Both the position numbers and the translations under genes were made by a program. From a virus: a stretch of DNA of 21,726 nt. The stretch lies in IMG/VR virus record IMGVR_UViG_3300025789_000175, positions 1 to 21,726 of that record; one strand, given 5' to 3'. Positions within the stretch are counted from its first letter, which is position 1; each line of letters opens with the position of its first letter. Positions 1,796-21,200 of the stretch are shown here, one piece after another. A model generated the notes under the pieces. That model made no database searches and had not been told where the DNA came from. It worked only from the letters and a program-made list of their open reading frames with translations.

Positions 1796-2806
1796 TTAAA
1801 CTTTCGGGTATGTATTTGCTATATTTGGTGTTTCTGTTATAGTGGTTGTATATGTATAATGACCATTGGAGTTTGATGTGGGTGGGTTTGGCACAACAAT
1901 TATTTGTGAATAATCGATAGAAGATACACTATAAGAAGTGAAAGCATAATTTGAATTAGTAATTGAACCAATAATAGGTTGATTAGATACAAAATTGCCA
2001 TTAACATTTGTCAGAGTAATTTGATTATTACTAGGATTAAATACAACCACTTTTGCTGTTGCTGTGGCCGAGTTAAGTGAATAACCTTGATACACAATTT
2101 CACCTGTTTTATATGTTCCAATACCTGTATTCGCTACGTTAAAAATTACAGATTGACTATCAGTAATATCGTTGAGAATATTTGTAATAGAAGTTTTAAT
2201 TAATCCAGCAGAAGATGTAGGACCAAATACATAACCTTTGACAGTAAAATTTAATGTCCAAATAATCATACGAGGGTCAGAATCTCTAGTTCCTTCATAA
2301 GTTATTTCATGACTTGTATTATTTAATACAACAGGTATTTCTTTTACAATACCCATTTCAGGAATTAAATTGAGTTTAATTGTATAATCTGGTGTAAAAT
2401 AAGGTAATATATGTTCAATAATTTGTGAACCATCTTCAATATTTCTTACATAAATGTATAAATTAAAATCAAAATTATAAGGTACAGGATTATATTGAGC
2501 AAGAACACCAGAACTTGTTTGATTAAATGTTTTAAAATTGGTGTTTTGTTTTCTTGTGGCATCGTAATTTAAACCTACCATTTCAAATGACATACGAGGT
2601 AAAGTCATTTGAACTTTTTTATCTAAGTTTGCATCACCTTCAATACGTTGAACATATAATTCTTTTGCTGCATAGGCAATAGGAACGATAAATCTTTCAG
2701 CTTCAGTTTCGTCTGGATTATAACGAACCAATGTAATATTATCAAATAAATTACCAAAACCTACAGTAAGTTTACGAATAATACGATTATAGAATATATT
2801 GGCCAT
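1796..2806 (-). CDS. 15: Tail sheath stabiliser / tail terminator (T4 gp15-like) with C-terminal extension
   Basis: This protein caps the contracted-tail sheath and connects the tail to the neck. It has 336 residues, against 272 in T4. The N-terminus (IFYNRIIRKLTVGFGNLFDNI), VPIAYAAKE (41-49), LPRMSFEMV (69-77), QYNPVPY (104-110), the block around IIEHILPYFTPDY (129-141) and the region near IIWTLNFTVKGYVF (181-194) follow T4 gp15 in order. The added C-terminal part, about 230-295, contains a small beta domain (GEIVYQ ... TNVNGNFV ... IIG) that also occurs in gp14 next door. The ATG overlaps the gp14 stop by one base (TAATG). The core assignment is secure; the role of the extra domain is unknown. 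Confidence 0.93.
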   Translation of the reverse strand: MANIFYNRIIRKLTVGFGNLFDNITLVRYNPDETEAERFIVPIAYAAKELYVQRIEGDANLDKKVQMTLPRMSFEMVGLNYDATRKQNTNFKTFNQTSSGVLAQYNPVPYNFDFNLYIYVRNIEDGSQIIEHILPYFTPDYTIKLNLIPEMGIVKEIPVVLNNTSHEITYEGTRDSDPRMIIWTLNFTVKGYVFGPTSSAGLIKTSITNILNDITDSQSVIFNVANTGIGTYKTGEIVYQGYSLNSATATAKVVVFNPSNNQITLTNVNGNFVSNQPIIGSITNSNYAFTSYSVSSIDYSQIIVVPNPPTSNSNGHYTYTTTITETPNIANTYPKV

Positions 2807-3693
2807 TATATTTTACCAAAAGTATTTGTTTCAGAAGTATTTGTTATAGCAGCTGCATTATTTAAAATGAGTTCGTTATCATAGTTTTCTTTATTTGCTG
2901 GAGAATTCAATGGGTCAAATGTAGATAATACATATTGAGCATTACTTGTTGCACCATAAATTATTTGACCATCAACAAATTCACCAGCAATATTGGTAAC
3001 CGATAGAGTATTAGATGATGGTATCCAAGATTGTACCACGGCAATGGTTGTAGCATTAGCTTGAGTTCCATCTGCCGATTGATATGCAACTTCTTGTATA
3101 TTGTAATTAATATGATTACCTGCGCCAGTATTTAAATGTAATGTGTATGCTGAATCTGTAACAACTGTGTCAATATCAGAAATTCCAGTAGCAATAACTT
3201 CTTGTGAGTATTTGAATTTCTCCATTTCCAACTCATAGAAATAAGGAACTTTTCTTCCCAACATAAAGAAATCTTTAGTTTGATTAGTGAATTTAATTTC
3301 AAACAACTCACCTGTACCATTTAAGAAAGGAATATAAATTAAATCACCTTCATTAGGCCTAGTTAAATTGGCATTATTAGGTATTCTTTGGGTGAAAGTT
3401 CTCTTGGATACAATAACTTTTACATTATTTTTAATTTCTAAACCAAATTTAGAAAAGAATTCTTTTTCACCTTCGTATTCCATTGAACTAGAAAGGTATA
3501 ATTCCAACTGAAAAGCCGATTCAAATTTACGAACAGGATCTTCACCATAGAGAAGGTCTCTGGCTTGATTGTTATTATTAGGAAGATAGTAGGCATCGAA
3601 TCCTTGAATTTTTATGGATTCCACAATTAAATCTTCAATAACTCTTTGTTCAGCTAAGCTGTTGTAATTATTAAAATATTGGCTAACTGCCAT
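2806..3693 (-). CDS. 14: Neck protein (T4 gp14-like) with extra C-terminal domain
   Basis: This head-completion and neck protein joins head to tail with gp13. It has 295 residues (T4: 256). Matches to T4 gp14 include VESIKIQGFDAYYLP (24-38), LLYGEDPVRKF (47-57), ELYLSSSMEYEGEKEFFSKFGLEI in part (64-87), GDLIYIPF (116-123) and a C-terminal part of the core, EKFKYSQEVI (158-167). Residues about 199-262 hold a small domain (EVAYQ ... VTNIAGEFV ... IIYGATSNAQY) shared with gp15. The ATG lies one base after the stop of the homing endonuclease; the likely ribosome-binding site AGGA sits inside the end of that endonuclease gene, about eight bases before the start. Downstream, its stop overlaps the start of gene 15. 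Confidence 0.93.
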   Translation of the reverse strand: MAVSQYFNNYNSLAEQRVIEDLIVESIKIQGFDAYYLPNNNNQARDLLYGEDPVRKFESAFQLELYLSSSMEYEGEKEFFSKFGLEIKNNVKVIVSKRTFTQRIPNNANLTRPNEGDLIYIPFLNGTGELFEIKFTNQTKDFFMLGRKVPYFYELEMEKFKYSQEVIATGISDIDTVVTDSAYTLHLNTGAGNHINYNIQEVAYQSADGTQANATTIAVVQSWIPSSNTLSVTNIAGEFVDGQIIYGATSNAQYVLSTFDPLNSPANKENYDNELILNNAAAITNTSETNTFGKI

Positions 3694-3694
3694 G

Positions 3695-4408
3695 TTAATG
3701 TCCTAACTTTTGGCACAAATGGCCTTTATGATGATTCTTTTTTCCTTTGGCAACATTAGACATTGCACCTTGGTCTAAATTATGTTCTCTACAAAATTTG
3801 TTCATATTTTTTATAATTTCTTTTTTACCGTTTGGAAAAGTTATTAACCAATTAACACTCTTAGCATCAGCAACATTTTTTTTAGATTCTTCGGATAAAG
3901 TCCAAGTTTTACCTTTTGATGCTGTTTTGTATCCTAACTCTCTTATTTCTAAGAATTGTTTTTTTCTTTTATCTTTTTCTTCTTCAGTTAAATTATTCCA
4001 AAATTCTTTTGTTTTATTTGCCAAATGTTTTTTGGAATCTGGATTATTTAAATAGTATTCTTTTAATCTTTTACTATTTTCTTTTCGTTGTTCTTCTGTT
4101 GGTTTCCATCCAAAAGTACCTTCACCACCATCTGTTTCATTGTAACCATTATTTTTAGAATCTAATTTTTTAATCCATTCTTTTTCTTTTTCAAATAATT
4201 CTTCTTTAGTTTCTGCACGATCCAATTCATACACTATAAAATTTTCTACGCCATATAAAGCCATTGCATTGTGTATATGACTTTTATTTGAACTATTTTT
4301 TGTTTTAGTAATAGTTTTATGTTGTTTAAACCTTCTTTCAATTTCTCCTCTAGTTACACCAACATATTTTTTACCATCCAATTTATTTTCTATACAATAA
4401 ACTTTCAT
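3695..4408 (-). CDS. Free-standing GIY-YIG homing endonuclease (Seg-like)
   Basis: This is a selfish mobile gene that cuts DNA at a target near its own locus and spreads by repair. Residues 1-90 form a GIY-YIG nuclease. VYCI with Tyr4 stands for GIY, YVG with Tyr15 for YIG, then Arg26 (followed by Phe27), His30, an acidic residue near Glu75 in EKEKEWI, and NGYN at 87-90, lining up with I-TevI. Residues about 100-190 carry lysine-rich NUMOD3-like DNA-binding motifs (SKGKTWTLSEESKKNVADAK). The C-terminal FCREHNLDQGAMSNVAKGK looks like a NUMOD/helix-turn-helix recognition segment. The glycine of GIY is replaced by Val-Tyr-Cys-Ile context, but all key residues are kept, so it looks intact. It interrupts the normal 13-14 adjacency and carries its own late promoter, AAGGAG site and leader hairpin. 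Confidence 0.92.
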   Translation of the reverse strand: MKVYCIENKLDGKKYVGVTRGEIERRFKQHKTITKTKNSSNKSHIHNAMALYGVENFIVYELDRAETKEELFEKEKEWIKKLDSKNNGYNETDGGEGTFGWKPTEEQRKENSKRLKEYYLNNPDSKKHLANKTKEFWNNLTEEEKDKRKKQFLEIRELGYKTASKGKTWTLSEESKKNVADAKSVNWLITFPNGKKEIIKNMNKFCREHNLDQGAMSNVAKGKKNHHKGHLCQKLGH

Positions 4409-4414
4409 ATTATC

Positions 4415-4445
4415 TCCTTATTATATCTTATTTATACAACAAGGA
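4415..4445 (-). promoter_or_regulatory. RNA hairpin hiding the endonuclease ribosome-binding site, with late promoter inside
   Basis: In minus-strand RNA the segment TCCTTGTTGTAT (4445-4434) can pair with ATATAATAAGGA (4426-4415). This gives a continuous 12-bp stem with two G-U wobbles and a seven-base loop (AAATAAG). The 3' arm contains most of the AAGGAG ribosome-binding site of the homing endonuclease (ATG at 4408). The TATAAATA late promoter overlaps the 5' arm and loop, so late transcripts would begin after the 5' arm and leave the site free. Pairing is read directly from sequence; repression is inferred from the T4 I-TevI, e, soc and 49 precedents. Confidence 0.7.
4429..4436 (-). promoter_or_regulatory. 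T4-type late promoter box TATAAATA before the homing endonuclease
   Basis: An exact TATAAATA on the minus strand, 21 bases before the endonuclease ATG. This is the consensus box recognised by the T4 late sigma factor gp55 with gp33 and gp45. Expected transcription start is about six bases beyond the box, near 4423. It lies in the 55-base gap after gene 13. Confidence 0.65.
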
Positions 4446-4463
4446 CATTTGAGCGCCACTAGA

Positions 4464-5237
4464 TTAATTCATAAACCACTCCAAAGGACTTCCGTAATTC
4501 ATTTCCATCTCTTTTTCTAATCTTTCAATTTCATCGGTAGCTTCTTTTTGAATTGTTTTACCATCTAAAGTAACTCCACCTGGTAATTGTAAACCGGCAA
4601 ACTTAGAAAGGTTATTACCCCAACTTCTTTTAATTAAAGCAGAAGCATATTCTTTTAACCAACGGTCATTCCATACCAAATTGTAGGTGTCTGGATTAAT
4701 CAGAGCATAAGCTTCTGATACTACCACTTGGCCAACCGGCGCTTCATAGTTGCCCCATGCCCAATCAATATACAATCTTTGCATATGTCTTTGGAATCGA
4801 ATAGGAACTTCACCAGTGAATTGAATTTCTAGTGAACGTAAGTGTTGCTGTGTTAGATTATAATTGATGTATGATGCGGAGGTGAAGTCGTATAACTCAT
4901 TTAAACGTAATTGATAACGCAGGTCAAACATATTAATCGTTGCTTGTGAATCTGAAAGTGGAAATATACGAGTAATACCGGCAAGTTCAATAGCATTACC
5001 ATCTTGGTCTAACGCTTTTGTAGCATCCAAATATTGGTTATTAATATCGTCTTGTGTTATATAATGAATCCAATAGACTTTTTGAAGTCCATCAAAGTGA
5101 TAATCTTGCCAATATTGAAGTGCGTCATCAATACGGTCTTGAACTTGGTCAGGATCCACGTTAATTTCGATAACAGGAAAGCCTAACCTACGTAGGCAGT
5201 ATGTTGTGAAATCTTGTCTGGATGTAATTGTTGCCAT
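4464..5237 (-). CDS. 13: Neck protein (T4 gp13-like)
   Basis: This head-completion protein closes the filled head and forms the neck with gp14. It has 257 residues (T4: 309). The N-terminal CLRRLGFPVIEINVDPDQVQ (about 14-33) and DDALQYWQDYHFDGL match T4 gp13 (ILRRLGAPIINVELTPDQI, RALELYGEYHFDGL). Near the C-terminus, WNDRWLKEYASALIKRSWG and LQLPGGVTLDGKTI match NNRWVKDYATALAKELNG and MMLPGGVTIDGQRL. The middle of the protein is shorter than in T4. The ATG at 5237 follows a strong AGGAGG site and a perfect late promoter; the site can be masked by a hairpin. The gene to its right is a fibre-tip protein, matching T4 where fibre and whisker genes precede gene 13. Confidence 0.94.
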   Translation of the reverse strand: MATITSRQDFTTYCLRRLGFPVIEINVDPDQVQDRIDDALQYWQDYHFDGLQKVYWIHYITQDDINNQYLDATKALDQDGNAIELAGITRIFPLSDSQATINMFDLRYQLRLNELYDFTSASYINYNLTQQHLRSLEIQFTGEVPIRFQRHMQRLYIDWAWGNYEAPVGQVVVSEAYALINPDTYNLVWNDRWLKEYASALIKRSWGNNLSKFAGLQLPGGVTLDGKTIQKEATDEIERLEKEMEMNYGSPLEWFMN

Positions 5238-8143: not shown

Positions 8144-11134
8144 TTATCCAAAAATTGTGTCAAGAGAATTTGTTAGTGGGTTGTATACCTGATAGACTAC
8201 TGAAATTTTATTGTTTGCAAAACCAACACGACCAGAAACATAGATACTATTTGATACAGTATTTCCTGATGTGCCTACTGATATAGCATTTGCAACAATA
8301 AGTGTATTGTTTGAAGAATAAAATAATAAATTTGATGTGTTAGAAAGATAACCTGTTGAGTTGGCCACAATAACAGAGTTAGCAAGATATCCTGAAGCAG
8401 TAATACCTCCACCACCAGAACCTAATGACCAAGGAGTACCGTTAGCTGCATATCGTAAATTATCAGTATAAATTGCACCGGTTGATGTTGTCGCATATAG
8501 TGAATTTGCATTTACATAACCGGTTGTTACAATACTCTCTGTTGTGTTTACAGAAATATTTGTAATATTTACGTTTTCAATTGTAGTATTACCAAGAACA
8601 ACCAATGAACCACCAACATAAAGACTACCTTTAATCCCTACACCACCAGCAACAGTCAAGGCACCAGTGGTGTTTGATGTTGAAGCTATAGTTGATTGTA
8701 TATTAACTGAACCAACACTTGTAATAGTACCTAATGTATTAACGCCACCACTTGATACCCAATTACCTACACCATCATATGTCCATGTTAGATATGTTCC
8801 TGAGTATCCTGAAAAACTAGTAATTGCAGATGATACTGTTACCCCACTATTATTTGTTAAAGTCCAAGCATATGGACTATTATCAACAATTGTAGCGTTC
8901 TGACAAGTTAAAGCTAATGTTCCGGCAACAGCAGTTAAATTTCCTTTAGGTGGTATAAAGTTTGATGTGTATATTCCAGTACCTTTAATAATTCTAAAGT
9001 TTGAAATACTTCCGGTATATGCTGTGTCACCACCATCACCACCAATATAAAATGCTGAGGCACTGGTAATACCACCGTTTTGTGTGGCTGAACCAATACT
9101 TACACCATTGAAATATACCGTTACTGTTCCTGATATGCGAACTACCGCAATGTGGTTCCAAGCATTTAATACTAAACCATTTGGGTTTGTATATGTTGTA
9201 AAACTACCATTAATATGCACGTTAATGTAGTTTGAAATGTTGCCTGGCATTTCAAGTTCAAAATTACCTGAGGTAGCATATGTACCCATACCCCATGCTC
9301 TTTGGTTAATACCTGAACTTGTTTGATAAAACCAACCTTCAACTGTAAAGTCACTTGTTCCTATTTGGAAAGTCGTATTTGCTGGATAACTTAATGTACT
9401 ACTTCCATTAAATGTATTGTAGTATACTGGTGTAAATACTTGATTATTTAATACAATACCACTATTCGCCAAAGGACTTGTAAATGTTAAGTTTGCGCCA
9501 TTTGAAGTAATATTATTAGCAACATATAAATTGTTATTTGACGAGAAGAATTGTAAGTTACTTGTATTACTTAAATACCCTGTTGAGTTAGCAATAATAA
9601 TCGAATTTGCTAAGTAACCTGAAGCAGTAACTCCGCCGCCACCCGTTGTTGTTATTGCTGTGTTAGTAATAGAAATTACACGACCGTTGGCCGCTAAAGT
9701 AATTACTGGAACAATTGTTGAGTTACCGTATACTCCTGCAGGTGATGTTAATGTTGTATAGTCAGTATTGGCTAATGTTTGTAATGAAATAATATTAGCA
9801 TTGGCACTATTTACATAAGAAAATAATAAAGTTGAATTAGCATTGGCGGTTAATAAACCTCCTGCGGTTACATTTGCTTGATTATATGCAGCTTGACTAT
9901 AAACTTGATTAGCAGATATCCATGAGTTTTGTGTAACATCAACACCTTGTGTAACTAAAATAGAATTGTAGTTAGAACTTATCCAACTATTCTGTGTAAC
10001 ATCTACACCTTGAATAATACCAATATTAGTGTTAGCATATGAACTAATAGCATTTGCCTGATTATACGATGCTTGGGTATAACTACCTAATTCAATACCG
10101 TTAATTGTTGCAGTTGGTGAAAATATTCCACCTGTAGTAATTGCATCATATTTTATATTTGATTCTGCAAAATTAACGGTCGAAGAAGGCTCAGTAGAAA
10201 CGTTACTGAAAAATGTCCAATTGCCAGTTAAATGATTACGAACTACACCAGTATGTTGATAATTATTATATTGACCACCAATGAAGTGCCCGACAATACC
10301 TAGGTCAACTACGTTGGCTGAATTATTGGATGCCAAATAGATAATAGGATCCTGAACACTAACACTATTGGATGAGTATGTTACAAGACTTCCTGCTACA
10401 TTAACATTACCTGAAACATTTAAACCACCAGAAATTGTTACAGTACCACCAACGGTACCCCCGGTATTAACAAAAGTATTACCTACGTTAGCCGTATTAA
10501 AAACGGACTGTATATAAGAATTTTGTGCTAAATCTACACCTTGTATAACTTGAATTTGATTGTTTTGTGCTAAATCTACACCTTGTATAACTTGAATTTG
10601 ATTGTTTTGTGCTAAATCTACACCTTGTATAACTTGAATTTGATTGTTTTGTGCTAAATCTACACCTTGTATAACTTGAATTTGATTGTTTTGTGCTAAA
10701 TCTACACCTTGTATAACTTGAATTTGATTGTTTTGTGCTAAATCTACACCTTGACTATAATTTATATTAGTATTGGCTGTATTTAATGCATTTTGTAAAT
10801 AAACCGTATTTGCGCTAGCACTATTTGATTGACTAAATGCCGCACTAATATTAGCATTTTGACTTGATTCAATACCAAATAATATAGAAATGTTAGCATT
10901 CGCTGTATTTAATCCAGATTGAATATAGAAAGAATTAGCATTGGCGGTTATTAAACCACCTGCCGTTACGTTTGCCTGATTATAAGCTGCTTGAGTAAAC
11001 GCTTGATTGGAAGATATCCATGAGTTTTGGGTTGAATCTATACCTTGTGTGTAGATTGTGTTTGATTGTATTGAATTAATTGTATTGGTTACAGAATTCG
11101 CTAATCCCTGAAATACAATTCTAGTTAAAGACAT
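8144..11134 (-). CDS. Large tail-fibre protein with 14-residue repeats and one LamG domain
   Basis: This 996-residue mosaic fibre has: N-terminal coiled-coil-like repeats with AYNQAN and QGVDxxQN motifs (1-230); a tandem array of GVDLAQNNQIQVIQ (about 128-205); a module centred on DPIIYLASNNSANVVDLG and GHFIG (about 245-335), also found in the 561-residue fibre; more QGVDVTQNSW repeats; a VPVITLAANGR module; one LamG domain (about 570-770); an ASTSNTTGALTVAGGVGIKG module; and a C-terminus ending NPLTNSLDTIFG. A segment of about 45 residues (GGGGxTASGYLANS onward) occurs twice, on both sides of the LamG domain. The AAGGG ribosome-binding site lies six bases before the ATG at 11134. Presumed structural and receptor-facing. 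Confidence 0.8.
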   Translation of the reverse strand: MSLTRIVFQGLANSVTNTINSIQSNTIYTQGIDSTQNSWISSNQAFTQAAYNQANVTAGGLITANANSFYIQSGLNTANANISILFGIESSQNANISAAFSQSNSASANTVYLQNALNTANTNINYSQGVDLAQNNQIQVIQGVDLAQNNQIQVIQGVDLAQNNQIQVIQGVDLAQNNQIQVIQGVDLAQNNQIQVIQGVDLAQNSYIQSVFNTANVGNTFVNTGGTVGGTVTISGGLNVSGNVNVAGSLVTYSSNSVSVQDPIIYLASNNSANVVDLGIVGHFIGGQYNNYQHTGVVRNHLTGNWTFFSNVSTEPSSTVNFAESNIKYDAITTGGIFSPTATINGIELGSYTQASYNQANAISSYANTNIGIIQGVDVTQNSWISSNYNSILVTQGVDVTQNSWISANQVYSQAAYNQANVTAGGLLTANANSTLLFSYVNSANANIISLQTLANTDYTTLTSPAGVYGNSTIVPVITLAANGRVISITNTAITTTGGGGVTASGYLANSIIIANSTGYLSNTSNLQFFSSNNNLYVANNITSNGANLTFTSPLANSGIVLNNQVFTPVYYNTFNGSSTLSYPANTTFQIGTSDFTVEGWFYQTSSGINQRAWGMGTYATSGNFELEMPGNISNYINVHINGSFTTYTNPNGLVLNAWNHIAVVRISGTVTVYFNGVSIGSATQNGGITSASAFYIGGDGGDTAYTGSISNFRIIKGTGIYTSNFIPPKGNLTAVAGTLALTCQNATIVDNSPYAWTLTNNSGVTVSSAITSFSGYSGTYLTWTYDGVGNWVSSGGVNTLGTITSVGSVNIQSTIASTSNTTGALTVAGGVGIKGSLYVGGSLVVLGNTTIENVNITNISVNTTESIVTTGYVNANSLYATTSTGAIYTDNLRYAANGTPWSLGSGGGGITASGYLANSVIVANSTGYLSNTSNLLFYSSNNTLIVANAISVGTSGNTVSNSIYVSGRVGFANNKISVVYQVYNPLTNSLDTIFG
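10521..10752 (-). repeat. Perfect 42-bp tandem repeat, about 5.5 copies, in the 996-residue fibre gene
   Basis: Units start at 10521, 10563, 10605, 10647, 10689 and 10731; the last is partial. The copies are identical at every base I compared, including synonymous positions. Each encodes 14 residues (GVDLAQNNQIQVIQ), two heptads, with no frame change. This is consistent with recent expansion by slippage or unequal recombination within a coiled-coil stalk. Confidence 0.95.
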
Positions 11135-11190: not shown

Positions 11191-12120
11191 TTATTTTGTT
11201 TTCTTTTCTATGTCATCGAATATACTTTTACAGATTTTATCAAGTTCATCTGTTGTAAAAGTCATAGTTCCTTCATTAATTCGGTTTGATAAAGCAGTAT
11301 CTAATCCGGATATACGAATTGGGCTATACTTCTTTTGACTTAATTTTTCAATAATATTAAAATACTTAGGATAAGATGTGTTTATTGGAAAAGTAGAACC
11401 AAAAATTACTGTTCCTGGTGTGTTCAATGCTCTGGCCATATGTTGACCTACTGAATCACAACCAACAAAATAATCACATTCTGAAACCAAAGCCATCCAT
11501 TGGCGTAAATCACAAGTAAATTTACTTGTAAATACATCTTCTTTTATTTGGTGAGTTGGTTCACCAAAGAAAATTAAATTATACCTTTTAGATAATTTTT
11601 CAACAATATACAAATAATCTTTTTGACTTAAACTTCTTGATTCTTCATCATAAATTGTGGTGTTATCTACTTTTGCGCCACGACCAAAAGGTTGAATTAT
11701 TACCGTTTTTTGTTTATTCGATTTCTCTTTAATTGTTTTAATACTATTTGTTGCTGCTAATTTTTCCAAATTACTTAACTTTAAAATTGGTGGAGTTAAA
11801 TCTGTATGGTCTTTTGTAATATTAATTTGTTCATCGAATGCTTCAACCATTGAAATTTCTTGCCTAAAATAAGCTGGAACACGATATGGTTCAGGCGTAA
11901 CAACTTCATCAGCATTTCTAACAATATTATCAAAAAGACCTTTAGTGTCTAATCCATAAACCCTATCTTGCAATTCTGGTATTCCCCACAAAAGAAAATC
12001 CCATCCTGCTACTAAAACTGCCCAATCTACCGTTGGATTTAATTTATTAAACTTTAGTAATGCTGGTATTGCTGCAATGATTCTTCCTGCTCCACCATCA
12101 ATAAAAAATATCTTCTTCAT
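11191..12120 (-). CDS. GT9 (heptosyltransferase-like) glycosyltransferase
   Basis: This 309-residue protein resembles ADP-heptose:LPS heptosyltransferases, GT-B enzymes. The N-terminus KIFFIDGGAGRIIAAIPAL (3-21) fits the acceptor-side glycine loop seen in GT9. VIIQPFGRG (140-148) matches the start of the nucleotide-sugar domain. DYFVGCDSVGQHMARAL then TPGTVIFGST (216-243) matches the hallmark D-x-F-(I/V)-G-x-D-S-x-x-x-H block. Length is a little under the family norm. It lies between the tail-chaperone gene and a fibre gene, with a strong GGAGG ribosome-binding site seven bases before the ATG at 12120. In this position it may glycosylate virion fibres or change host surface sugar; both are inference. 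Donor and acceptor cannot be read from sequence. Confidence 0.72.
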   Translation of the reverse strand: MKKIFFIDGGAGRIIAAIPALLKFNKLNPTVDWAVLVAGWDFLLWGIPELQDRVYGLDTKGLFDNIVRNADEVVTPEPYRVPAYFRQEISMVEAFDEQINITKDHTDLTPPILKLSNLEKLAATNSIKTIKEKSNKQKTVIIQPFGRGAKVDNTTIYDEESRSLSQKDYLYIVEKLSKRYNLIFFGEPTHQIKEDVFTSKFTCDLRQWMALVSECDYFVGCDSVGQHMARALNTPGTVIFGSTFPINTSYPKYFNIIEKLSQKKYSPIRISGLDTALSNRINEGTMTFTTDELDKICKSIFDDIEKKTK

Positions 12121-12149: not shown

Positions 12150-12647
12150 TCATGTATTTGCTGTGTTAGCCGAAAAATCTGGTATTGGATATGTTATCAT
12201 CCATGGAAAATTATTCTGTGAAGGAATATCTAACCAAGCTTGGCAAAACGCATCTAATTTATTTATATCTTCTTTTGGGGTCAAACCTAGTCTGACTTCT
12301 CTGTTATATTTGTCGTATTTCCATTGAATTGAATTGATGGTTTCAAATCTAGCACGATTAAAAGTTGCTCTCGTTACGTTTAATTTTATTATCTTTTGTT
12401 CGTCGGTTAGAGGAGTTAAATTATATTGGTAAATATCTCCTGTTTCCGTACTAACTACAGCAACATTAGCAATATTATCAAAAGTAAAATCTAAAGGTAC
12501 AGTAATGTGTGTATTACTATTTGAAGAAGGTACAAAATAAGCATCTACAAAAGATACATCATAATCACGCTCAACAAATTCGGATATTACCTGAATATTT
12601 GCATTAGGATATTGTTTTGAAAGAATTATAAGGTTTGTGCTGGCCAT
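12150..12647 (-). CDS. Probable tail-fibre assembly chaperone
   Basis: This is a 165-residue protein without repeats, unlike its neighbours. The C-terminal half resembles phage tail assembly chaperones (Phage_tail_APC / Tfa type). It has a stretch RARFETINSIQWKYDKYNRE, then LDAFCQAWLDIPSQNNFPW (about 131-149) and an ITYPIPDF ending, comparable to the family pattern of YRQALRDIPxQxxFPW. Such proteins help a fibre tip fold and trimerise. It begins 12 bases after the stop of the cysteine-rich fibre gene, the usual place for a fibre-specific chaperone, and is followed by the GT9-like gene. AGGAT before the ATG at 12647 serves as ribosome-binding site. The N-terminal half is unrecognised. Confidence 0.5.
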   Translation of the reverse strand: MASTNLIILSKQYPNANIQVISEFVERDYDVSFVDAYFVPSSNSNTHITVPLDFTFDNIANVAVVSTETGDIYQYNLTPLTDEQKIIKLNVTRATFNRARFETINSIQWKYDKYNREVRLGLTPKEDINKLDAFCQAWLDIPSQNNFPWMITYPIPDFSANTANT

Positions 12648-12659
12648 TTTTATCCTATA

Positions 12660-14270
12660 TTAAAATGAGATTGGTAGAGTGCCCCAACAAGCATTACCAC
12701 TAAAGGTATTGCCAAAATAAAAATCATTACAACCTGAACTATAAAAAAATCCATTGTAAGAACAAGCAAAAAAACCAAACCCGTTACCGCACATTGTAAA
12801 ACTTGCCATGGCGACTGGGGGAAAAGAACACGTCACATAACTCGTTGAATCCCATACACACATACAAATAACACATTGTCCACAAAGATAACCACTAGGT
12901 GTAAAACCCCCTGTGCTGCAAAATGATAAGTTGCTTACCATTGGAGAGCAACATATCATAGTTGGAGATGTAGAATACCCCCATACACAATTTCCAAAAT
13001 TGTCTTGTAATTCAATAAAACTATTACAAACAAAACTTCCACCACCTCCACCACCACTTGGTGCAGCACCCCACGTTATTTCATTAGTTGAACAGTTATA
13101 ATATAATACACTACAACAAGTTATTTTACATCTAATAGGATTTACGTAAAAACCACAACACATTATAGGAAATCCATATGGTGAAGCGTTTAAAACAACA
13201 CTACATGGACACTGGCAAGAACATCCAGCAGAATAACCTATAGCGATAGAATAACAACCTTGATTACCACAACCAGCATTAACACCAATAGCTATAGAAC
13301 ATCCATTTTGATTATTTTGTCCTGCATTACACCCAATGGCAAGTGATCCGGATTGCTGATAATATTGTCCAGCATTAGAACCAATTGCGATAGAATCATT
13401 ACATTGGGTATTATATCCTGCTTGACAACCCACAGCAACTGATTGAGAACCTTGACAACAATAACCAGTATAACAACCAATGGCAATCGCTGCGGAATGT
13501 TGTTGGCGTCCTCCTGCACAAGATCCAATTGCAACAGAATCATTCAGTTGAGCAATACAACCTGCACCAACACCAATAGATACTGATTGAGAACCTTGGT
13601 CTAAACAACCAGCATTAACACCAATAGCAATAGCACAATCTCCACCGTTTCCTTGTGAAATTTGTCCAGCATTTTCACCTATAGCAATAGATGTTATTGA
13701 TTGACTGGTGAAACCTGAGCATTGGCCAATTGCAATATTTGTTGGACCAAGATTATTATTGATATTACAGATTGTAGACCAGCAAGTTGAAGCTCCACCA
13801 CCGCCTGTATTTGCTTTATTGTATGCACTTTGTGCTAAATTATTGGCCGCATTAGCTTGATTATATGAACTTTGGGCTAAATTGTTGGCTGAATTAGCTT
13901 GATTATATGAATTTTGGGCTAAATTGTTGGCTGAATTAGCTTGATTATATGAACTTTGGGCTAAATTATTTGCTGCGTTTGCTTGATTATATGAACTTTG
14001 CGCTAAATTATTTGCTGCGTTTGCTTGATTATATGAACTTTGCGCTAAATTATTTGCTGCGTTTGCTTGGTTGTACCCACTTTGCGCTAAATTATTTGCT
14101 GCGTTTGCTTGGTTGTACGCAATAGAGATTGTACTAATTAAATTAGAACCCGATACAATTAAAGTATTAGCGGTAACTATATTTAAACTGGCATTAGCAT
14201 TTCCATCAATGACTTGTTGACCATTGATACTTAAACCGTTTTTGACTTGAAAATTTTTAGTAATTGACAA
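12660..14270 (-). CDS. Cysteine-rich beta-solenoid tail fibre (TTG start)
   Basis: This is a 536-residue fibre. Residues 1-50 hold an N-terminal module (ITKNFQVKNGLSINGQQVI) typical of phage fibres. Residues 51-155 are eight copies of a 14-residue YNQANAANNLAQSS stalk repeat. Residues 177-360 are about eleven copies of a 16-residue SxAIGxxAGxxxQxxx repeat, like YadA-head or left-handed beta-solenoid repeats. A GFYVNPIR/VLYYN segment, a Gly6 linker and a C-terminal tip follow. I count 40 cysteines, all from residue 163 onward, none in the stalk; in the solenoid they fall at variable positions only. The start is TTG at 14270, eight bases after AGGGGAG. The nearby ATG at 14277 is out of frame and stops after six codons. 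The probable chaperone follows directly. Confidence 0.85.
   Translation of the reverse strand: MSITKNFQVKNGLSINGQQVIDGNANASLNIVTANTLIVSGSNLISTISIAYNQANAANNLAQSGYNQANAANNLAQSSYNQANAANNLAQSSYNQANAANNLAQSSYNQANSANNLAQNSYNQANSANNLAQSSYNQANAANNLAQSAYNKANTGGGGASTCWSTICNINNNLGPTNIAIGQCSGFTSQSITSIAIGENAGQISQGNGGDCAIAIGVNAGCLDQGSQSVSIGVGAGCIAQLNDSVAIGSCAGGRQQHSAAIAIGCYTGYCCQGSQSVAVGCQAGYNTQCNDSIAIGSNAGQYYQQSGSLAIGCNAGQNNQNGCSIAIGVNAGCGNQGCYSIAIGYSAGCSCQCPCSVVLNASPYGFPIMCCGFYVNPIRCKITCCSVLYYNCSTNEITWGAAPSGGGGGGSFVCNSFIELQDNFGNCVWGYSTSPTMICCSPMVSNLSFCSTGGFTPSGYLCGQCVICMCVWDSTSYVTCSFPPVAMASFTMCGNGFGFFACSYNGFFYSSGCNDFYFGNTFSGNACWGTLPISF
13809..14117 (-). repeat. 42-bp tandem repeat, 7+ copies, encoding the YNQAN stalk
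   Basis: Tyrosine codons recur every 42 bases from 14117 to 13821, giving seven full units and the start of an eighth. Units encode YNQANAANNLAQSS with small changes (Ser for Ala, Asn for Ser, a final YNKAN). Unlike the 10521 array the copies are not identical: units at the gene's 5' side use TTTGCTGC-type sequence (plus strand ttatttgctgcgtttgc), whereas those towards the solenoid use ttggc forms. This suggests an older array with local homogenisation. Confidence 0.92.
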
Positions 14271-18267: not shown

Positions 18268-21200
18268 TTATTTCCTTTTTAATATATTTATCTCGGCCTT
18301 GAGTTCATTTACTTGTGCAGTTAATTCTTTCACAGATTCAATTAATAAAGCGGTAATGTGTTCATAACGAACTGCTTTACTAGTTTCTTTTGTTTCTATA
18401 TCTTTAAATTCGTAAACTAATTCTGGTGCTACTTTTTCAACTTCTTGAGCAACAACACCCATCAATCTATCTATTTTACCAATATAGTTATAGGTATAAC
18501 CATTTAATGTATTTACTTTTGCAAGAGCATTTGGTATTTTAATAAGATTTTCTTTTAATTTGATATCAGAAGGAGAACCATAAGCGGTGATGTTGCCGGC
18601 AGTAGTCCAATTACCAGTAGAATCCAAAGCAGCTTTTACGGATCCTACATCATAAGGTGAATTTGTAGTAGAAAAATTAAATGTATAAGAACCATTATCC
18701 ATGACCATAGTATAATTGTATACGCCGTTTTCAGGATCTTTTACGTCATAGAATGAAATTTTGCCTGCTGAAGAACCACGCATTGCAAACTGAGGAGCTG
18801 AACCTGTATCAACATACACTTGAACTTGTCCTGTGTTTATATTAGGAGTTCCAGTTAAATTATTAGCAGTATTGACAGTACCAGAAGAAGTAATATAACC
18901 ATTTGGATTAGTTGCTGGATAAGCACCGAGATTTGTCAATGCTTGTGATGCTGTCGTAGCACCGGTACCACCATAAGCAACACCAACTGCTGAACCATTC
19001 CAAGTTCCTGATGAAATTGTACCTACTGAAGTTAGACTAGAACCTGTAACACCAGAGGCAAGAGAACTACCTGTTAGAGAACCAGCAGGAGCTGAACCTG
19101 CTGAAGCAGCAGTACCAGAAGAAGTAATATAACCATTTGGATTACTTGCTGGATAAGCACCGAGATTTGCTAAAGCTTGTGATGCTGTTGTAGCACCAGT
19201 ACCACCATAAGCAACACCAACTGTTGAACCATTCCAAATTCCTGATGAAATTGTTCCGACAGAGGTTAAACTAGAAGCCGTAACACCAGAAGCGAGGGTA
19301 GAACCTGTTAGAGAACCAGCAGGAGCTGAATTTGCTGAAGCAGCAGTACCAGAAGAAGTAATATAACCATTTGGATTACTAGAATTATATGGCGTATAAC
19401 CAAGAGCCGTTGTTACTTGAGAACTTGTAATACCGGTTATATAACCATTTGGATTAGTTGCTGGATAAGCACCGAGATTTGTCAATGCTTGTGATGCTGT
19501 CGTAGCACCGGTACCACCATAAGCAACACCAACTGTTGAACCATTCCAAATTCCTGATGAAATTGTTCCGACAGAGGTTAAACTAGAAGCCGTAACGTTA
19601 GCAGAAAGAGAACTACCTGTTAGAGAACCAGCAGGAGCTGAACCACCAATAGATAAGTTAGTTACAGGAGTTAATGAAGCTACTGTAAATGGTGCTGTTC
19701 CTGTTGATACTGTTGATGTTATAACACCTGAAGCACTTACAGTACCTACAGAAATATTAGGAGTTCCAGTTAAATTATTAGCAGTATTGACAGTACCAGA
19801 AGAAGTAATATAATTACTTGGATTATTTGCTGGATAAGCACCGAGATTTGCTAAAGCTTGTGATGCTGTTGTAGCACCAGTACCACCATAAGCAACACCA
19901 ACTGTTGAACCATTCCAAGTTCCTGTTGTAATTGTACCTACTGAAGTTAGACTAGAACCTGTAATACCAGAGGCAAGAGAACTACCTGTTAGAGAACCGG
20001 CAGGAGCTGAACCAGTAATACTAGAAGATAGTGTAAAGTTTGAATTAGCAAAAGTACTTACAAAAGATGTTGTTGCCAACATAGTGTTTGCTGTACCAAC
20101 AGGTGCAGTAGGACCAAAAACAGCACCAGTAAATGTTGTGCCAGATTTTAATGCAGCAATTGATGTTAATCCGTCAACGGCTAACTGAATTGTATTTGCT
20201 GTTGCCCCGATTGTTCCGTTAACTGTATATGCAATGTTGTTTGCGTAGTATGGATTAGAAATATATCCATCGACCTCAAGTATTACGTTAGCAGTTGATG
20301 GAGGTGAAGAAATAAACGTAACAATACCTACACCACCAGTATTACCACTAGTTTCATTGTAATCAACAGTTCTAATTTTTCTACTACCATTGACATAAAC
20401 CTTAAGTTGGTCAGCACCTGGAACATATACAGGTGAAGAATAAGAAAGTCCTGTACCATTTGCAACATAAGTTGTCAATGAAGAACTAATTGTTGTACCT
20501 GGTGTAGCACCGCCGCCTCCGCCACCAGTACCTCCTGCTGCCCAATAGTATGAACCTACACCACCTGTAACCAAAACGTAACCAGCTTGTTCTCCAGTTG
20601 GCAATAAATTAGTTAATGCTTGTGTAGAAGTTGTGGCACCCGTACCACCTTGAGTAATTGGTAAGGCAGTTGACAATGTTAAACTAGAAAAAGTTGGGCT
20701 AGCAGTTGTTCTTAAATCTTGTGGTGTAGCGATTGATAAACTGCTACCTGAACCTGTAACTGTTACACCGTTTGTGCTACTAAAAGAAATTATACCTGAA
20801 GTTGGAGTTGCTGTACCTGTTGTTCCTGTGAAAGCATTTGCTGACGTATTAGCACGATTATAAGATGATTGTGTAAATGCATTAACGTTTGCCACATTTG
20901 AACTAATACTTGCATTTATTGAAACTACGTTACTATTAATACTTGAACTTAAATTATTTACTGAAGTAGTAATAAAATTATTTAAAGCATTTGCTGTGTT
21001 TGCAGAAGCAACAGATGTTGTGCTTGTGGATAAAGCATTATCTACTATATACTCATTAGTTAATATTCTATAATAATTTGAATTATTAACATCTAGGATA
21101 TCCCAATATTGATTTGATTCACTCCAACGAATTGCAGCGTTAGGACCAGGACTTCTATAAGCTCCAAACGATACAGGCCCAGCACTTTGAACAGGTGTAC

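Follow-up and report, generated by a model that had tools for sequence, protein, structure and literature searches.

Phage virion proteins are usually poor in cysteine. Why, then, should a single tail fibre have 40 of them? The fibre is encoded on an IMG/VR contig of 21,726 nucleotides (the window; Table 1). Judging by its genes, the window is a fragment of an uncultured T4-like phage: its tail sheath stabilizer and gp14 are 35-45% identical to cyanophage and pelagiphage Mosig counterparts, and its fibre gene cluster adjoins the neck genes gp13/gp14, as in T4-like host-recognition fibres. Pelagimyophages and cyanomyophages have a host recognition cluster of fibre genes, with a glycosyltransferase, adjoining gp14 (PMC7029224), and the window's fibre block and glycosyltransferase beside gp14 resemble this arrangement. 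The paper that describes the cluster mentions neither cysteine nor 2OG-Fe oxygenases (PMC7029224). The cysteine-rich gene is best read as encoding a host-recognition tail fibre, with an attachment part, a stalk of 14-residue repeats, an 11-coil beta-roll, a shoulder, and a tip.

Table 1. Features of the window (window coordinates).
Feature	Position	Strand	Details
Cys-rich tail fibre / adhesin ORF	12660..14270	(-)	536 aa, 40 Cys; T4-like phage window
N-terminal domain and stalk, residues 1-162	13785..14270	(-)	14-aa repeats SSYNQANAANNLAQ, 42-nt DNA period, no Cys
Solenoid, residues 178-356	13203..13739	(-)	11 x 16-aa repeats, 18 Cys, predicted YadA-head-like beta-roll
Shoulder module, residues 357-405	13056..13202	(-)	SVVLNA...FYVNPIR...LYYN.STNEITW, 6 Cys
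Distal tip, residues 406-536 and stop	12660..13055	(-)	14 Cys
165-aa ORF directly downstream of the fibre	12150..12647	(-)	possible tail-fibre assembly chaperone; Phage_tail_APC PF16778, E 0.003, below cut-off
Glycosyltransferase family 9-like protein, next gene	11191..12120	(-)	PF01075 27.1 bits (cut-off 22); phrog_8954 E 1e-81
T4-like tail sheath stabilizer (phrog_227), head closure Hc2 (gp14), and Ad2 (gp13) genes	1796..5237	(-)	context markers

Cysteine content of the fibre

The open reading frame starts with TTG and has GGGGAG upstream. It has weak matches to the PHROG tail-fibre families phrog_13481 and phrog_4242, which cover the stalk only, and it matched no family in a search of Pfam. 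All 40 cysteines lie within residues 163-528, and residues 1-162 have none. As the sequence-only reading had stated, about one residue in nine is cysteine from residue 163 onwards; this residue corresponds to base 13784, which is where that reading ended its feature. The density across residues 163-536 is 40 of 374 (10.7%), as compared to 19 of 6,208 residues (0.31%) in the window's 17 other ORFs. Just 1.1 cysteines would be expected in this part of the fibre, and the binomial P value is ~1e-47 (4e-28 against a 1% background). They are spread over the linker (2), the solenoid (18), the shoulder (6), and the tip (14), and they include adjacent pairs at 271-272 in the solenoid and at 371, 385, and 440 after it. 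Their codons are mostly TGT (34, with 6 TGC). The neighbouring fibres are almost free of cysteine, as had also been claimed: the window's other fibre-like ORFs contain 0-0.3%, except for a 206-aa ORF with 1.0%. T4 proteins overall contain 0.9% cysteine (PMC10811340).

An artefact of sequencing, which the sequence-only reading had named as a possible refutation, or of assembly is ruled out by three independently assembled contigs that encode the same fibre. All 536 amino acids are identical (100%) in the two sister contigs (IMGVR 3300006116_000089 and 3300006071_000192), and the shared region is 99.7-100% identical to the window at the DNA level. Searches with peptide patterns from the whole fibre, the solenoid, or the tip matched these sister contigs only. 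No homologue of the distal tip was found beyond them.

Solenoid fold and recurrence in other phages

The solenoid within the phage fibre is predicted to be a YadA-head-like beta-roll. AlphaFold2 (single chain, 23 homologues) gave a pLDDT of mostly 72-93 for the solenoid, with strands at a periodicity of 16 residues, and ~25-39 for the tip (residues 406-536). The top Foldseek hit of the solenoid model was YadA (1p9h; probability 1.00, E 0.013). VIA-align ranked it with the heads of CbpF (9gh5; Z 17.9), BpaC (7o23; 17.7), YadA (16.5), BoaA (3s6l; 15.2), and AtaA (3wp8; 13.9), followed by left-handed beta-helix acyltransferases (GlmU, for example) with Z of at most 13.4. The ranking by these two methods is the basis for our assignment; EibD is also a sequence match to the fibre (E 0.004). 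The YadA-like heads share the SxAIG repeat strand, the beta-roll, and an adhesin role with the fibre, but their coils have ~14 residues instead of 16 with a conserved Gln13, and they do not bear cysteine on the outer turns or belong to a phage fibre. The earlier description of the distal part as a solenoid and a tip is thus borne out, with 11 repeats followed by a shoulder, which is conserved and is also found in Cys-poor homologues (by alignment), and then the tip. The fibre is not a trimeric autotransporter adhesin, since Pfam finds no C-terminal YadA anchor; the C-terminus is the cysteine-rich tip.

Within the 11 repeats, cysteine is found at positions 6 (3), 7 (2), 10 (4), 11 (1), 12 (2), 14 (2), 15 (1), and 16 (2), and never at positions 1-5, 8, 9, or 13. 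Since only the AIG core was used to find these repeats, the absence of cysteine from positions 1, 2, 8, 9, and 13 is an observation and not an effect of the search. This agrees with the sequence-only reading, which had confined cysteine to variable, loop-side positions. It had also described a rise to four cysteines in the last repeat. The last repeat does have four, but the rise is not smooth (1, 0, 1, 1, 1, 3, 2, 0, 2, 2, and 4 per repeat, in order), and two repeats have none.

To gather other solenoids, we used DNA patterns of the repeat core. The non-redundant set comprises 53 phage solenoids with 16-mer repeats: 23 have 4.5-9.7% cysteine in their repeats and 30 have 0-2.1%, with none between (cysteine was favoured by three of the four scans, and the neutral scan gave 3 rich to 24 poor). 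The window's solenoid has the highest value of the 53 (9.7%). Given the 30 homologous Cys-poor solenoids, the fold does not need cysteine. The sequence-only reading had named homologues of this kind as the finding that would count against it; they do so as regards the fold, but a functional role still stands, given the 23 solenoids at 4.5-9.7%.

Across the 481 repeats of the 23 Cys-rich solenoids, cysteine is most frequent at positions 11 (31%), 12 (25%), 15 (13%), 7 (12%), and 16 (12%), while in the Cys-poor class the same columns contain at most ~1%. (In these 481 repeats, the absence of cysteine from positions 3-5, 9, and 13 was forced by the search expression, but its absence from 1, 2, and 8 was not.) Relative to the Cys-poor class, cysteine is up 28-fold, and asparagine (0.57-fold) and threonine (0.43-fold) are reduced, consistent with the claim that related solenoids use Asn or Thr where the window has cysteine. 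The cysteines of the fibre are not part of its structural core: they occupy the outer turns and the tip, at sites that hold Asn or Thr in relatives. Histidine (4.3-fold), arginine (2.3-fold), and tyrosine (1.6-fold) also increase in the Cys-rich class. The codons for Cys, His, Tyr, and Arg share the form YRY, but simple codon or nucleotide bias is ruled out: the additional arginine is encoded by AGA as well as by CGT, and the increase in tryptophan is not significant. This indicates that selection acts on the residues.

The idea that cysteines form a ladder from coil to coil found no support. Cysteines that share a column in adjacent coils are at the chance level (105, as compared to 106.3 expected; or 89 versus 78.4, z = 1.8, without two very long arrays). 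An apparent pairing of position 7 with position 12 of neighbouring repeats dropped from z = 3.7 to z = 2.0 on removal of two long duplicated arrays.

Some of these fibres are very long. The single fibres at L263 6142-12366 and L304 622-5886 have at least 71 16-mer repeats and 74-76 cysteines, and the alternation of CRQR-type repeats with others looks like the product of tandem duplication of multi-repeat units. There are also very long fibres with 17-mer repeats (NIAIGxxAGxxLTTG), for instance L060 1450-11427 and L068 3301-13128, with others in L075, L088, L026, L146, and Marine virus AG-345-L05 (L562 5704-13176). These 17-mer fibres contain ~2.5-6% cysteine, some exceed 3,000 amino acids, and several are kyanovirus-like.

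An oxygenase cassette near cysteine-rich fibres

Near Cys-rich solenoids, we found a recurrent gene order: the fibre, a small protein, a 2OG-Fe(II) oxygenase that we will call B, and a protein of ~80 amino acids that we will call C. The small protein belongs to DUF7936 (PF25590) in L259, and elsewhere it is chaperone-like or a 71-aa ORF. B belongs to PF13759 and phrog_81 (E 3.5e-16 and 8.6e-12). C has 16 invariant columns among 41 sequences, and a comparison to the PDB gave no fold match. B and C occur together at 81 loci (B was detected at 86 and C at 98). In some relatives, gene maps show the B/C cassette filling the stretch between the fibre and gp13.

When whole records are compared, 23 of 25 Cys-rich contigs (a set that leaves out the window's sisters) carry B, as against 0 of 26 Cys-poor contigs (Fisher P = 1.5e-12, uncorrected for kinship). 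The Cys-rich set spans T4-like contigs (phrog_227 in G004, G005, G006, G009, G011, G016, and G018) as well as contigs of up to 137 kb without phrog_227, and B is missing from one T4-like contig of the Cys-poor set (G052). Since Cys-poor contigs do have other PF13759 proteins, outside the B subgroup, the association is specific to this subgroup, which differs from other phrog_81 and PF13759 oxygenases in its link with C and with virion proteins rich in cysteine. The association also extends beyond solenoids. At 59 non-redundant loci, the nearest ORF of at least 200 aa upstream of B has a median of 2.3% cysteine, and the corresponding figure is 0.5% in the 273 other ORFs (Mann-Whitney P ~1e-17); many of these Cys-enriched proteins are Gly-rich and adhesin-like instead. 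By a stricter count, an ORF reaching 5 cysteines per 100 aa is found at 27 of 43 B loci and at 3 of 26 controls.

B is not required for cysteine enrichment, since two contigs (L219 and L258) and the 17-mer fibres are Cys-rich without it (among 11 contigs of the 17-mer group, B is missing from all but one weak case). B is strongly associated with one Cys-rich class. The window (a 21.7-kb fragment) and both sister contigs have neither B nor C, but all of these are short fragments and the phage may encode them elsewhere. B may also be relevant to the window's own fibre.

Among 50,697 phage records, C was found in one and B relatives in six, and a scan of genome contigs gave no locus with a solenoid of at least three repeats and no ORF resembling B or C. 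Cultured phages hardly ever carry the cassette, and this may explain why it has gone undescribed: in the open-access literature, we found no account of Cys-rich phage fibres or of the B/C cassette. The only public phage record with both B and C is MW202545.1, which also has two Cys-rich ORFs, while its own solenoid has 0.4% cysteine. These ORFs (both on the minus strand of this record, L554) lie at 18835-20073, with 33 cysteines in 413 aa, a CSCCCSCCC poly-Cys/Ser run, and an automatic annotation as "coronavirus S2 glycoprotein", and at 20077-22008, with 36 cysteines in 644 aa. Also, the pelagiphages HTVC023P (L555 7348-9231) and HTVC033P (L556 7292-9406) have paired 2OG-Fe(II) oxygenases, one of them B-like (27-32% identity), adjoining a putative ferrochelatase and with no Cys-rich fibre nearby.

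The recurrence across viruses and the association with an oxygenase go beyond what the sequence-only reading could see. Cys-rich fibres turn up in many uncultured phages, with B as their usual neighbour, and this points to undescribed thiol chemistry at the end of the fibre that presumably touches the host. Recurrent tips with ~5-11% cysteine, tied to one oxygenase subgroup, suggest covalent hardening, metal use, or enzymatic modification there.

Chemistry of the cysteine-rich tip

The evidence supports selection for surface thiols on receptor-binding tips, and in its favor, Gly-rich adhesin-like proteins encoded at the same place in the genome are likewise enriched in cysteine. As to their chemistry, we propose that disulfides harden the receptor-binding tip after release, which we consider the most likely reading, with a probability of roughly 0.38. 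The fibre would fold in reduced form in the host cytoplasm; after lysis, its exposed thiols would oxidise to disulfides within and between protomers, and these would harden the tip. There is a precedent in Agrobacterium phage Milano, whose tail parts, including the tail spike and the short tail fibre, are enriched in cysteine and cross-linked by disulfides (PMC10811340). Milano has 2.1% cysteine across its structural proteins and a mapped disulfide network in its tail (PMC10811340), whereas in the window one distal fibre reaches 10.7% and the rest has ~0, and its disulfides are a proposal. Against disulfides, adjacent coils show no in-register excess of cysteine, glutaredoxin shows no clear excess in Cys-rich contigs (5 of 21) over Cys-poor ones (2 of 17), and the enrichment of His, Arg, and Tyr is not predicted. 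(A search of the contigs for Evr1/Alr has no bearing either way, since its controls were empty.) The association with the oxygenase also suggests chemistry beyond spontaneous oxidation. B, assisted by C, may oxidise or hydroxylate fibre residues, the simplest target being cysteine; in the window's phage, B would then lie beyond the sequenced fragment, or another modifier would act, such as the neighbouring glycosyltransferase. The near-perfect split of B between Cys-rich and Cys-poor contigs, the co-occurrence of B and C, the cysteine content upstream of B even where the fold is different, and the two very Cys-rich ORFs of MW202545.1 despite its Cys-poor solenoid all favor such modification. 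We still regard it as somewhat unlikely, because the window and its sisters lack both genes, other Cys-rich fibres (L219, L258, and the long 17-mers) lack B, a strongly Cys-rich ORF is missing upstream of B at 16 of 43 loci, and we found no PF13759 substrate in the literature. The association could reflect cassette linkage. We are more doubtful of the general form of this idea, in which there is a class of phages whose Cys-rich tips are matured by a dedicated 2OG-Fe(II) oxygenase and its conserved partner acting on the fibre; phages would thereby encode a thiol or oxidation chemistry that acts after translation on receptor-binding proteins with several unrelated folds.

Surface Cys and His could instead bind Fe, Cu, or Zn, either for structure or to engage a host metal-uptake receptor (Ferrojan-like). 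Histidine does increase together with cysteine at the variable positions of the Cys-rich class, and iron is bound by HxH motifs in T4 gp37 and related fibres, including that of alterophage R22Y (PMC11705849), trimeric fibres with which the window's fibre would share possible metal ligands. But the translation of the window's fibre is nearly free of histidine and has no HxH motif, with cysteine in place of paired His; its cysteine positions differ from repeat to repeat, with no fixed ligand geometry; and Arg and Tyr are enriched as well, so metal binding seems unlikely to us. It is improbable that the exposed cysteines swap disulfides with a thiol or disulfide protein on the host surface, giving covalent adsorption. 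The high cysteine density of all distal parts, and the several unrelated Cys-rich tip types in the same slot, would fit this, but 40 cysteines are not needed for it, and the link to the oxygenase is left unexplained. Least probable is neutral drift or compositional bias in a fast-evolving fibre. Fibre regions are hypervariable, but the excess over Cys-poor homologues, the split into two classes, the avoidance of core positions, and the low cysteine content of nearly all of the window's other fibre-like ORFs argue against it.

Two other features of the window deserve mention. The ORF between gp14 and gp13 (3695-4408, minus strand) begins with MKVYCIENKLDGKKYVGVTRGEIERRFKQH, which by eye resembles a GIY-YIG homing endonuclease. 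Within the ORF at 8144-11134 (minus strand), positions 10521-10753 are 42-nt tandem repeats that encode VIQGVDLAQNNQIQ. The sister contigs (L002 and L003) are 84 nt shorter here, which corresponds to two fewer copies, so fibre length differs among strains.
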